A DNA stretch of 64,000 bases from Pratylenchus scribneri (taxonomy: Eukaryota > Nematoda > Chromadorea > Rhabditida > Pratylenchidae): contig JAQSEB010000132.1 of NCBI GenBank assembly GCA_030063045.1, positions 744,001 through 808,000 on the forward strand, given 5' to 3'. The position numbers and the translations under genes are program-made. Below, one piece after another: positions 30,601 through 35,536 of this stretch. Under the pieces are notes generated by a model. The model was not told the DNA's origin. It did no database searches and saw only the letters and a list, made by a program, of their open reading frames with translations. Position 1 is the stretch's first letter; every line of letters starts with the position of its first letter.

Positions 30601-32261
30601 ACCATTTTACGGCTAATACAGCTAATATGTGCTCTCTTCTGATACAACATAACCCAAATGCATTTGTACCTCTAGTGTATTTTTATTACTAAATGCACTT
30701 TAATTATAAAATAAATTAATAAAATAAACCAATCGATGAATAAGGGATATAAGTTGAAATAAATTTATAAAGAATTTAAATTTTCAAATTATTATTGTAA
30801 ATATTTTAATGTTATAATATATATTTAAGCTTATTAAACCTTTACAAGCATGTTTCGATATTTGCGCGGACATAACAAAAAAAACAAAATTTAAACATCA
30901 AAGATAAACATTATTTTAAAAAAAACCATCCCATCCATAAAAGAAGCAATAAACAAAATGAAAATATTGACAAAAAAATAAATTTTTACAAAATATTTTT
31001 TTATATTTTATGGTAATTGTGACGACTCGATAAACAACAGGAAGCGCAAAAAAAAAGAAAAAGTCAAAAAATTTAAAATTAGTCATGGATTTGTCTTAAA
31101 AATGATGACAACGAAAATGACTACATTTGACAACGAGCATGATTCGCTTGGAAAATTATATGTCAAATTTTAAATCATTGAAAAAATTTGAAAAGGTATT
31201 GTTTTTTAAAATAATATCATAATATAGAATTAATTTAATTAAGTAAAAATAATTAATTAAAAAAGAAGTAAACAAAAAATAATAAAAAAATTTTCTCATT
31301 TTTTAAATAAAATCTTTGAATATAAAAATTATATTTATCATAGAATTGTAATTTCTTTCTATTGAAATATAAAATTTTTATGAATTATTTTCATTTTTAA
31401 ATATAAATTAGTTCATTATAAAAATTGAAAAGATGTCAATAAATAATAAAATTGTATTTGCATAAAAATGACGAATTCTTTTATCTTTATAATTGCATAT
31501 TATATTTTTTTATATAATTTTATGAAATTCTTGGAAATGATGAAAAATTTAAATAAAATTAAAAATATTATAAAAATTTTTTTCAATAAATATAATTAAA
31601 TAATTTATATTTTCCCATAAAATGAAAAATAATTCTATCTTTGAAAAAGAAAACATACCCTCTGTAATCGAAGGCTTTATTTTAATTGCAATAAATTCTA
31701 AAAAAAAAATTTAAATTTAATGTATATGGGAACTTGTTGAATAAAAACAATATGCTGATCGCGTGCTGGAGAGTGCCATTGAATTTCGGAACAAGAGAAA
31801 GCGAAAAGAATGAATATAGGATTCAAATGCCAAAATTATTTAATTATAGGAAAAATATTTGCTATTGTATATATTAAAAAAGCAAAATAAAAAATAATTA
31901 ATAATATTAATTTAAAGTTTAAAGTAAATGCGGAATATTGAAAAATTATTTTTTTTTTTTTAAATTAATAAAATTCAGTTGCATTTTATTTAAAATATTT
32001 AGGAATAAAAAATTTAAATTTTAGTCTAAAAATTAATTTCTAAAATTCAATTATTTTTACGTAAAATATATATTCGTATTTTATTGTTCATGTAAAAAAA
32101 ATAATGATTACTAAATGGCGAAGAGAATAAATCAGGAAATTTATAATAAATATGTATATAAAAAAATTAATATTACAAATGCTTACTTATGTAAAAAGTG
32201 AAAAATCGTTAAGATAAAATTAATTTATAAATTTTATTTTATTAAATTCTTTATTGGTCCC
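27638..32261. other. AT-rich stretch without a clear gene
   Basis: No gene can be supported. A 30-base segment at 28985-29014 is bracketed by a good acceptor (CCTTTACAG) and donor (GTAAGA) and is open in frame (FDYGDKRGNA), so it could be a lone or fossil exon. A 63-codon + frame at 30982-31173 and a small GC island at 31,745-31,810 are unrecognised. Confidence 0.5.
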
Positions 32262-32270
32262 TTCTAGAAG
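32262..32270. repeat. Candidate target-site duplication, left copy
   Basis: TTCTAGAAG sits immediately outside the left inverted repeat and recurs at 34204-34212 on the right. Nine bases is the duplication length typical of Mutator-like elements. The 10-base form CTTCTAGAAG (32261-32270 and 34203-34212) is a perfect palindrome, so direct and inverted repeats cannot be told apart. The core TTCTAGAA also fits a heat-shock element unit, which I treat as coincidence. Confidence 0.5.
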
Positions 32271-32451
32271 GGGAGTCATTTAATTTGGCGAAAAAAATAC
32301 TGAATTTGGCGAAAAAAATATTTAATTTGGCGAAAAGTTAATTTATACTTAATTTGGCGAAAAAAACACTGAATTTGGCGAAAAATATACTTAATTTGGC
32401 GAAAACAATAAAAATATAAAATCGCTCGTTATAAACAATGCAAACCGGTTT
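32271..32451 (+). repeat. Left terminal inverted repeat
   Basis: This is the mirror of 34023-34203. From TTAATTTGGCG at 32280 to the palindrome AAACCGGTTT at 32442-32451 the two arms are identical base for base. The outer nine bases (GGGAGTCAT against GAGATAATA on the other arm) match at only three positions. Confidence 0.9.
32282..32401 (+). repeat. Six phased AATTTGGCG repeats in left arm
   Basis: Copies of AATTTGGCGAAAA start at 32282, 32303, 32324, 32351, 32372 and 32393. The spacing is 21, 21, 27, 21 and 21 bases, that is, two groups of three. Twenty-one bases is two turns of B-DNA, so a protein binding each copy would sit on the same face. By analogy with subterminal repeats of other DNA transposons these are likely transposase-binding sites; that is inference. 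Confidence 0.85.
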
Positions 32452-32506
32452 CGTTGCATCCCAAACCGTTTTATAATAATTTATTTTGTAAAATATTTAT
32501 AGATAA

Positions 32507-32679
32507 ATGGAATTTGAAAACCAAAATTACATAATTAATAATTTTGAAGCTGATGATCAAGAAAATGTTAGTGAAAATTCAACACCAAAGCGAAGAAGGA
32601 ACGAATATTTCGAATTAAATCAATTTACAAACGAAGCTGCTTGGCAAACATGGCTCAAAACTGAAGATACATGGACAAG
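32507..32679 (+). CDS. MULE/FLYWCH-like first exon, partial
   Basis: The frame starts at ATG 32507 and runs to a donor (ACAAG|GTTAGC) after 32679. It encodes an acidic leader, a basic patch (PKRRRNEYFEL) and EAAWQTWLKTEDTWTR. The last part resembles the opening of FLYWCH-type zinc-finger domains found at the N-terminus of nematode Mutator-like proteins, where a Trp-rich start precedes the Cys/His core. That core is missing. The exon lies 55 bases inside the left repeat. Splicing from its donor to either visible acceptor (after 32736 or 32748) does not enter the talin frame and meets a stop within a few codons, so a fusion protein is not evident. It is probably the leftover 5' end of the element's own gene. 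Family assignment is by eye. Confidence 0.45.
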
Positions 32680-32754
32680 GTTAGCGTATAAGTTTAAAAT
32701 TATTGTTCTAAAAATTTACAATTATATTTAATTCAGAAATACGAATAGCCAATC

Positions 32755-33692
32755 ATGACGAATATTCTCTGGTTTGGAGTGTTGCGATCCACAGCCGGAA
32801 CACCGACAAGAGCGCCACAATATGGCGGAGTGAGTGGAATGATCATTGGCCAAGAGATGCCCAGAGGGGAAAGAGTTCGTTATATGGATGCACGCGAACG
32901 AAGTCAACGGGCACTGATTGGGACAATTGAAGCAACGTAAGAATTAATTTAATTATTATTCATTTTGGTTATTTAAATTAAAGAATTCCTGCTGTTGAGG
33001 AGGCTGAGGAGGAAATTGCAAAACCACCACAAATTGATTTGCCCAGATTTGGTGAAACTCAACGCCATTGGAGAGTGGAGGTCGAAAAGGAGGTAGTTGG
33101 GGACCGATTAGCGGCAATGGGCGCAGCCACTGCTGAAGTAAATATTCACATAGTAAATCAATTTAACACATTAATATTTAGGTTGTTCAACTTACGGCTA
33201 TTCCCGAGGAATCCACGGTGGACATTCGAGTTGGGAATGCAATCGCAACAATTGGCTCAAATTTGCCCGAAATGGGTCGAGGAGTTCGCGAATTGGCCGC
33301 CCTTATGCCCGACGAAACACCGTGCCGGTGATTTGGTGGATGCGGCCAGAAAATTATGCGGAGCATTTGGGGAATTTGTGGACAAAGTTCATCCGGAACG
33401 GCAAGAAAAAAGAGCAAATATTTTATCGGCGGCCAGTAGAGTCGGTGAACTTTCGCACGATGTGATCAGCACAATGCAGGAGAGGACAGAAGAAGAACGG
33501 TCGTTCCACGATGAACTCAATCGAAAGGCACGAGCCGTGGCCACAAGCACCGCCCAACTCGTTTTACAGTTAAAATACGCATTAATTTAATAATTAATTT
33601 AAAATTTTAAGAGCAAAACAGTTTCGGCTGATTGTGAAGAGCCCGTTTTGAAGGATCGAACTATTCAATCCGATTGGCCTATTCTAGTTTAA
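32755..33692 (+). pseudogene. tln-1: Captured talin gene fragment (linker and R1 rod region)
   Basis: Talin is the large cytoskeletal protein that links integrins to actin. Four exon pieces match it: up to 32936, 32984-33137, 33182-33568 and about 33614-33675, with introns of 47, 44 and 45 bp that all begin GT and end AG. The translation carries RSQRALIGTIEAT, AAMGAATAEVVQLTA, AIATIGSNLPEMGRGV, DLVDAARKLCGAFGEF, KRANILSAASRVGE and AVATSTAQLVL, the hallmark sequence of the end of the head-rod linker and the first rod bundle (about residues 430-660 of the roughly 2,540 in vertebrate talin). An extra A in the run at 33315-33317 shifts the frame: the talin frame before it hits TGA, and the following exon part is open one frame over. 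Homology ends after about 33675 and a stop follows at 33690-33692. Intact introns show capture at DNA level. It cannot make a normal talin. Confidence 0.88.
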
Positions 33693-34022
33693 TTATTGCT
33701 CAACTTATATTTTTGATTATTAAAAATCGTACGAATAAATATTTTATCTTATTTTCTGTATATGGGCTATTGGATTTGGTTTATGTTATAATTAGCATTT
33801 TAATAACAGAACTTTTCTTGGTGATTAGCGGCGATTCTTGAACCTTTTCCATTCCAGGAGAGCATGGCTCCATTTGTAGATGGCTTATTCCCTTCCCATA
33901 TTATCATCATTCCCTCAATTTTCATTCAATTTCCATAAATTATTAATGTTCAATTTCGTTTTAGCAAAAATATTTAATATTCCATCAATTTTTAGTTTAT
34001 TAAACCAATTTTTGTTCATTTC
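33693..34022. other. Unassigned interior of the transposon
   Basis: About 330 bases between the talin fragment and the right repeat. It holds an AATAAA at 33734-33739 that could end a transcript. The open frame at 33880-34083 runs into the inverted repeat and has a low-complexity Phe/Leu/Ser product, so I do not call it a gene. Confidence 0.5.
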
Positions 34023-34203
34023 AAACCGGTTTGCATTGTTTATAACGAGCGATTTTATATTTTTATTGTTTTCGCCAAATTAAGTATATTTTTCGCCAAA
34101 TTCAGTGTTTTTTTCGCCAAATTAAGTATAAATTAACTTTTCGCCAAATTAAATATTTTTTTCGCCAAATTCAGTATTTTTTTCGCCAAATTAATATTAT
34201 CTC
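34023..34203 (-). repeat. Right terminal inverted repeat
   Basis: This is the reverse complement of 32271-32451 and contains the same six-copy array (CGCCAAATT in + orientation, 34073-34192). The inner edge is again the palindrome AAACCGGTTT at 34023-34032. Confidence 0.9.
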
Positions 34204-34212
34204 TTCTAGAAG
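34204..34212. repeat. Candidate target-site duplication, right copy
   Basis: TTCTAGAAG, identical to 32262-32270, directly outside the right inverted repeat. Confidence 0.5.
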
Positions 34213-35536
34213 ATATTATCTTCAAGAAAATTTTTAAAATAGTAATTTAATAATATATTTATGATATATTGAAATAGCTGTAGATTCTATTAATTACCAT
34301 TTACAGTAATTAATTTTAAAAATTAAAATTATTATATTACATAATAATTTTTCGGAACTCCAACGGAACCAACACTAAGTACCGAGTCTGGATTAAAAAT
34401 AAGTAAAAAACCTTTTTTTAAAAATTTATTTTGTTCGAAAAGACGTTAAAGTTTTAAAATTTAATATTTCTTCTAAATTAAAATTATTTATTGTAGGTAT
34501 ATGTAACTGTAGATTTCTGGCTATTATAATATTTATTTTTTAATATAATAATAAAAAAAAGCATGGACTCAACCCATTGAAATTTCAAAATAAATTTGCT
34601 TCTAAATTAAAATATAACGCTATTCATTTTTAGATATTTCTTATATTTTGGATAAAATTGTTAGCTAAAGGAAAAAGATTGAAAATTTTTTTTAATTTTA
34701 TGCATATTTATTAATTAACTTAAAAAAAGAGAGGCGTTAATTAAATAAGAAATTTAAATTATTAAAAAAAATATTTAATTATTATTTATTATTAAAAATA
34801 TTTTCAATATAGATTTAAATTAAAAATGATATTTTAAAAATATAAAAAAAAGTTCATGAAATATTAAATTTCCATCGATTAAATAATTATATATTTAAAA
34901 ATATCAATGATTTAAAAAACATTAAAACTACATGATTTTTCATGAAATATTAGATTGATATTTTGAAAAGTTTATATATAATTACAATAAAATATAAGAA
35001 ATATTAAGAAATATAATTTATTAAAAATATACATATGTATATTGAAAAACGAAATTTTAGTCGTGTAATAAATATATTTGTGAAAGATTCATATAAGATT
35101 TGCCTGACAATTCATTTAGATAAATAGTAATATGTAATTAGTTGGTTAATTAGTAGTTAGTACACGCTGGCTAGTTCAGGCGGAATGGCGCCAAATTCAA
35201 CAGATAAGAGCAATAAATGCACAACGTCAAAAGACGTTTTTTACTTACATGAGGTCGTCAAAAACTGAAAATAATATCCAAATTGGAATAGATCTATTTA
35301 CGAATTAAATCAATTAAAATTAAGGGATATTTAAAATAAAATAATATAAAATTTATGTGACATTATTATAAAAAATCATGAAATATAAATTAAAATAAAA
35401 TTTAAAAATTATAGACGAAGAGAGTTAAAAAAGAAAGTTTTTATAAAAAATTTATACTTTACTAAATGGAAAATATTTTGAAAATCCTTATTATCCGAAC
35501 CGAAAAATCATTTTTCATTCAATCTCCCCACCCCAG
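34213..35536. other. AT-rich stretch between transposon and candidate gene
   Basis: Mostly A/T words. A GC-richer island at about 35,150-35,310 carries a 51-codon open + frame (containing WLVQAEWRQIQQIRAINAQ) that stops at 35306. It does not splice in phase into the exons at 35,537 and I do not recognise it. Confidence 0.5.

Follow-up and report, generated by a model that had tools for sequence, protein, structure and literature searches.

A very probable Pack-MULE carrying a talin gene fragment in the nematode Pratylenchus scribneri

Gene capture by Mutator-like elements (MULEs) is a textbook process of plants, where it is well known, and it has rarely been shown in animals. For the plant Pack-MULEs of rice, maize, and Arabidopsis, we use the features given in the available text of two published accounts (PMC8277862, PMC6446971), together with general knowledge. 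A survey of 100 animal reference genomes identified no Pack-MULE in them, according to its accessible part, which also calls the Ssk-FB4 elements of Drosophila melanogaster Pack-MULEs moved by an unknown transposase (PMC8277862). The Tm1 family of root-knot nematodes includes non-autonomous elements, which are described in the available portion of the report as having no significant coding potential (PMC3169594). A Pack-MULE carrying a coding gene in a nematode was not found in the literature searched, which comprised titles and the starts of abstracts among the matches listed and covered open journals and few subscription journals, preprints lying outside it.

The locus described here lies in a window of 64,000 nucleotides (C132:744001–808000) of a genome of 227,248,964 bases in 276 contigs, represented by one assembly. 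Positions 32271–34203 of this window very probably constitute a complete non-autonomous Mutator-like element (Pack-MULE) in an animal. A reading of the sequence alone had proposed a transposon carrying a captured piece of the host talin gene, and the inverted repeats, the target duplication, and the talin DNA of the interior bear this out.

The element and its insertion site

The interval 32271–34203 is exactly the whole element, which has a length of 1933 bp and is flanked on each side by TTCTAGAAG. The target duplication is 10 bp long and reads CTTCTAGAAG if the right border of the element is set one base earlier. The element and its borders can be divided into the following features, given in window coordinates.

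32262–32270, no strand: left target-site duplication TTCTAGAAG, with an identical copy at 34204–34212; single in two empty related sites
32271–34203, plus strand: whole element, very probably a Pack-MULE, 1933 bp, with ends shared by the family and an exact target duplication
32271–32279, plus strand: 5'-type outer end GGGAGTCAT, outside the inverted repeat, with genome matches to the 5' 21-mer
32280–32451, plus strand: left inverted repeat, 172 bp, with the 21-bp tandem unit TTAATTTGGCGAAAAAAATAC in about six copies
32507–32679, plus strand: predicted transposase exon 1 (MEFENQNYII...), followed by a predicted 5' splice site; aligns to exon 1 of the 3-kb relatives
32680–32736, plus strand: predicted transposase intron 1, with TTCAG as its present end at the talin joint; the relatives match up to 32731
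32732–32774, plus strand: talin patch A, 43 bp, from the exon encoding GIANHDEYSLV; 88–93% identical to four talin loci
32775–33657, plus strand: talin patch B, 883 bp, with three introns at about 32937–32983, 33138–33181, and 33569–33611; 92–95% identical to four talin loci, with Pfam Talin_middle matches
33312–33317, plus strand: one-base talin frameshift, common to both element copies and located by alignment
33658–34022, plus strand: 3' remainder of the parent MULE, beyond the predicted transposase stop of the relatives; 82–88% identical to the 3-kb, 2-kb, and 1.7-kb relatives
34023–34194, minus strand: right inverted repeat, 172 bp
34195–34203, minus strand: 3'-type outer end, reverse complement GAGATAATA, with genome matches to the 3' 21-mer
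34204–34212, no strand: right target-site duplication TTCTAGAAG, matching the left copy

The terminal inverted repeats characteristic of MULEs are present as two arms with 100% complementarity over 172 nt, each built of about six 21-bp tandem units, and the near-perfect long inverted repeats noticed earlier are thereby confirmed. When window positions 31501–35000 were shuffled 100 times by single bases, exact inverted matches reached at most 20 nt, compared with the 172 nt observed. The outermost 9 bp are unlike at the two ends of the element and read GGGAGTCAT on the left and GAGATAATA inward from the right.

MULEs duplicate about 9–11 bp of their target, and the duplication bordering the window copy is exact. 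Exact duplications of 9–10 bp flank 21 of the 24 family members that have one end of each type, and those of the remaining three contain one mismatch, where the border may slide by one base. Outside this set are L041 and L055, the 3' ends of which are not intact, L027, which is without its outer 5' end, and the short elements or lone ends L059–L066. Two further elements outside it have ends of a single type and no target duplication at their borders: L032 (C132:827661–829736) with two 5'-type ends, and L046 (C4:1073647–1075175) with two 3'-type ends.

A search with the joined flanks of the element identified C150 and C48, which cross the joint without an element at 88–89% identity over positions 419–669 of the query. 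Each of these contigs carries CCCTTCTAGAAGATAT once at the empty site, and the insertion therefore occurred on the C132 copy of the region.

The talin load and the transposase relatives

The left 458–461 bp and the right 543–546 bp of the element align to relatives with lengths of 3.02, 2.0, and 1.7 kb, with identities of 75–93.5% on the left and 82–88% on the right. L038 is 93.5% identical over element positions 1–458. None of the relatives found could be recognised as the parent element, the closest of them reaching at most 93.5% (left) and 88% (right) identity. In the window element, talin stands in place of exons 2–8 of the transposase encoded by the 3-kb relatives with the same ends. On the 5' side, the start of the transposase, its exon 1, and most of its first intron are kept. 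Talin comes next, in the same orientation, and then the 3' part. The host fragment is thus enclosed by MULE ends, as in Pack-MULEs, and no transposase is encoded, the coding remainder being exon 1 only.

The four 3.02-kb copies (L033–L036) differ from each other at 18 alignment columns. An eight-exon gene model, in which the last acceptor was picked by a script for the longest frame, is open for 610 amino acids in three of these copies, whereas the fourth has an internal stop and insertion and deletion differences. The predicted 610-residue protein contains the MULE transposase domain PF10551 (E = 4.8e-12, 46.6 bits with a cut-off of 27.6), which places this domain in relatives with the same ends. 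In the Phantom family of MULEs, the MULE domain is combined with a FLYWCH or SWIM zinc finger, and the predicted protein is a possible member of that family. A SWIM domain scored below the cut-off in the whole predicted protein (E = 0.011) and just above it in the exon alone (E = 5.8e-4), and a protein search with the transposase yielded one weak match. The sequence-only reading had suggested that a full-length relative with the same ends should be sought, and the 3-kb relatives, which encode a predicted MULE transposase, are of this kind. With their open predicted transposase, they make an autonomous partner in the same genome likely. The exon next to talin had been called MULE/FLYWCH-like. 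It corresponds to exon 1 of the MULE transposase, and the FLYWCH part of the label was rejected because Pfam finds no such domain in window exon 1 or in the predicted 610-residue transposase of the full-length relative. Window exon 1 is without any Pfam match.

The interior had been read as talin exons and introns, with the reservation that a protein search might find it unrelated to talin. Pfam Talin_middle matches two exon pieces above the curated cut-off (E = 3.4e-14 and 3e-10) and a third exon piece below it (E = 6.1e-4), the interior matches talin-1 from the PDB with E = 1.4e-7, and the DNA of patch B (32775–33657) is 92–95% identical to talin loci on contigs C11, C20, C42, and C46. All three comparisons identify the interior as talin, and the parental gene is present elsewhere in the genome, on these four contigs. 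Patch A (32732–32774) is 88–93% identical to a stretch about 1.24 kb upstream in each of these four talin loci. The talin portion of the element (32732–33657) therefore consists of 43 and 883 bp from gene places about 1.24 kb apart. The joint between the patches lies inside exons and alters the reading frame. The joint at the 3' end of talin has no overlap, and that at the 5' end is imperfect. Three introns are kept, and the capture was therefore from DNA.

Patch B of the window copy diverges by 3.9–6.8% from the four talin loci and differs from the copy on C22 at 3 of 883 sites, and the divergence among the four loci is 4.55–6.01%. The similarity of these values indicates that the donor was about as distant from the present talin copies as those are from each other. 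Alignment to the genomic talin loci had been proposed as a means of dating the capture. It was achieved with four real loci, in which the introns correspond to those kept in the element, and it provides a relative, not an absolute, age; the unrooted tree gives no clear position of the donor among the talin loci. No other family element was matched inside the four 9.5-kb talin loci.

The genome contains four talin loci (L028–L031 on C11, C20, C42, and C46), and the insertion region is present in no fewer than three related copies (C132, C150, and C48). It is possible that these reflect a polyploid or hybrid genome. The draft assembly of the root-lesion nematode P. scribneri, with 276 contigs and 227.24 Mb, was inferred to be diploid in the accessible text of its description (PMC10138993).

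It is unlikely that the chimera is a working gene, in which the upstream region of the transposase and exon 1 drive the formation of a spliced sense-talin RNA that acts on talin, for example through small RNAs, or of a short protein. The upstream region, start codon, exon 1, 5' splice site, TTCAG acceptor, talin introns, and 3' part are co-oriented, as such a function would require, and at least 30% of the Pack-TIRs of three species are transcribed as chimeras, according to the available part of the survey (PMC8277862). However, if transcription began at the old start, exon 1 would be spliced to talin, and the predicted frame ends a few codons after the joint. In addition, talin carries the same one-base frameshift in both element copies, and the window copy has lost one base more. 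The exon changes private to the window copy comprise four synonymous and four amino-acid-changing ones, compared with 47 and two, respectively, in the four talin genes (Fisher p = 0.002). Although small in number, these changes fit a loss of constraint after the capture. Judged from its sequence, the frameshifted talin piece with relaxed constraint is probably no protein gene.

Extent of the family

The genome contains 352 matches to the 5' 21-mer and 469 matches to the 3' 21-mer of the element, with up to two mismatches allowed, and the reversed-pattern controls gave 0 and 1 match, respectively. The first 100 listed 5' ends lie on contigs up to C50. A listed 3' end on the same contig could be assigned to 50 of these, giving 30 pairs of 210–285 bp and 20 pairs of more than 700 bp. 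We compared 29 elements or remnants longer than about 700 bp, which include all 20 of these listed pairs and nine others, both talin copies among them. The repeat search scored 40 of 346 candidates, and the survey of copies covers part of the family. The 29 can be divided into four elements of 3.02 kb, four deletion derivatives, 16 members of a GC-rich repetitive class, one GC-rich element with a nested element, two short elements with multi-copy inserts, and the two with talin. A genome search with the 172-bp repeat had been suggested, and copies with other gene pieces, if any exist elsewhere, had been said to point to an active gene-shuffling family. The large family was found, with interiors compared for the 29 elements only, and the existence of such copies was not supported: a recognised captured gene piece is present in none of the 27 non-talin elements compared, and a remnant on C46 outside this set is ambiguous. 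Capture looks rare among the elements examined, which are a minority of the family.

The subtype with GCGA in both ends, counted by exact matching in the whole genome, has 59 5' ends and 50 3' ends, which form 32 pairs. The pairs longer than 1 kb measure 1434, 1487, 1616, 1649, and 1933 bp, the last of which is the talin element, and the 1649-bp pair lies at C166:291896–293544. The 16 members of the GC-rich class are 1.35–1.94 kb long (one is a remnant) and have an internally repeated interior with a GC content of 44–48% in the seven measured. The interiors of this class (L040–L046, L049, and L051–L058) sit against a window GC content of 19%. None of 19 open frames chosen from frames of at least 60 amino acids passes the Pfam cut-off; one reached E = 0.094.

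Several elements were considered as gene captures and rejected. The inserts of L047 and L048 are multi-copy. The insert of L050 was read as a nested element because of its inverted ends and apparent 8-bp duplication. This apparent nested element (L050:1412–2558) is delimited by TAGGGTTGCGCCCCCGC ends, and CTTCCAAT may be its 8-bp duplication; its outer parts occur at few places in the genome and one inner stretch at many, with at least 41 matches in all. The sequence to the left of the 5'-shortened talin copy on C22 is related to it (69%). L032 was recognised as another transposase derivative. Some 50 kb separate it from the talin element, whose repeat agrees with one of the L032 repeats at every position over 181 bp. 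The candidate at C12:609261 appears to be truncated against AT-rich DNA. The remnant on C46 (L075, C46:1575690–1576879) is a transposase remnant adjoining low-copy sequence, which is found at five places including itself, is partly open in frame, and has copies with 83–92% identity on C46 and C183. The adjoining sequence may be flank or a second capture.

Movement and origin of the chimera, and known systems

Over 1798 bp, a second copy of the chimera, in the region C22:444600–446500, is 99.4% identical to the window element. It has all three joints and the frameshift in common with it, and the load therefore exists at two places. The 3' outer end of the C22 copy is complete, whereas its outer 5' end, at which a target duplication would be assessed, is missing. 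The flanks of the two copies are unlike each other. We infer that the second locus most likely arose by transposition. The target duplication in the window, the empty sites, and the second locus with other flanks strongly favour transposition with the load, short of proof.

It is distinctly unlikely that an ordinary MULE at 32271–34203 was cut, refilled with talin in place, and never moved with its load, the process that explains most of the single-copy animal Pack-TIRs in the accessible text of the published survey (PMC8277862). The two loci share three joints and a frameshift within different flanks, and at least one of them therefore moved or was copied after the capture. Furthermore, both of the related contigs found, C150 and C48, hold no element. 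An assembly artefact or a misjoined talin locus is very improbable. The talin loci are close in sequence (4.55–6.01% apart) and the evidence is that of the assembly itself, but the exact target duplication, the empty related sites, the recurrence of the same joints at two loci, and the location of the four talin loci on other contigs all speak against an artefact. A normal talin locus was rejected since no talin locus was found on the contig of the element, and the earlier concern that the repeats might be an artefact around such a locus is excluded on present data by the talin loci elsewhere and the empty sites. Capture of talin mRNA by reverse transcription could account for the joining of patches A and B without the intervening 1.24 kb, and is hardly credible because three introns are retained and the joint lies within exons, not at their borders.

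The Pack-MULE could have formed in the following way. An autonomous MULE of the 3-kb type may have broken within its transposase gene, after which repair DNA synthesis would have switched to a copy of the talin gene and taken 43 bp. Synthesis would then have skipped about 1.24 kb, unless this stretch was deleted later, and taken up 883 bp more of talin. The talin-bearing strand would then have been rejoined to the 3' part of the element. Both complete ends are retained, and the chimera could therefore have been mobilised in trans by the transposase of intact relatives. It inserted at the window site, where 9–10 bp were duplicated, and a further copy is present at the second locus. Template switching, mobilisation in trans, and the origin of the C22 copy by transposition are steps that we infer, and the route of capture is less certain than the identity of the element as a Pack-MULE. 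The joints have little or no microhomology, so that they do not separate template switching from end joining. Fork stalling and template switching followed by transposition is a published model, given for multicopy animal cases in the available text of the survey (PMC8277862), and it accounts for the second locus better than gap filling in place does. A living animal Pack-MULE system, in which several near-identical copies with an open transposase package host pieces by template switching and move them, is a tentative and somewhat doubtful extension of this scheme.

A single genome holds the captured gene, the parental genes, the empty site, and relatives that have the same ends and an open predicted transposase, which makes the origin of capture and its movement in animals directly testable. 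If the tentative reading as a living system is true, it would be a first opportunity to study capture, the autonomous partner, and empty sites side by side within a single animal genome, and chimeric transposase–talin RNAs would be a possible output.

The element is similar to plant Pack-MULEs in that MULE ends surround a DNA-level copy of a host gene, it is non-autonomous, target duplications are present, and more than one copy is possible. It differs from them in its animal host, in the one captured gene found, and in the presence of transposase exon 1 and the 3' part.

Tm1 from root-knot nematodes is likewise a MULE of a plant parasite, with repeats made of tandem units and with unlike outer motifs (PMC3169594). 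The accessible description of Tm1 gives 9-bp duplications, MITE-like, deleted, and autonomous classes, and a suggested acquisition of a host histone hairpin (PMC3169594). The Tm1 repeat unit is CGATTCAGTATCCGC, mostly of 14 bp, whereas the unit here has 21 bp with AATTTGGCGAAAA, and the Tm1 end motifs are CGGTTAA and CCTACCC, in contrast to GGGAGTCAT and GAGATAATA here (PMC3169594). Compared by description, the Tm1 transposase has 496 amino acids and a FLYWCH domain, whereas that predicted here has 610 amino acids with no FLYWCH found (PMC3169594). Identity with Tm1 was rejected because neither the repeat unit CGATTCAGTATCCGC nor the end motifs are matched by the element, the unit of which is TTAATTTGGCGAAAAAAATAC. 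Turmoil-1 of Caenorhabditis elegans is also a nematode DNA transposon with host pieces, from rsp-2 and cpg-3, one of which spans an intron; according to the available text, it belongs to the Harbinger superfamily and has these pieces in its inverted repeats, whereas talin is located in the interior of the element (PMC2572040).

Ssk-FB4, as presented in the accessible part of the survey, resembles the talin element in having a host gene between long repetitive inverted repeats, duplications of 9–10 bp, and the same chimera at more than one locus (PMC8277862). Ssk-FB4 is expressed and may be functional, whereas the talin piece is broken (PMC8277862). The transposase of Ssk-FB4 is given there as unknown, whereas copies with the same ends and an open predicted transposase are present in the same genome as the talin element.
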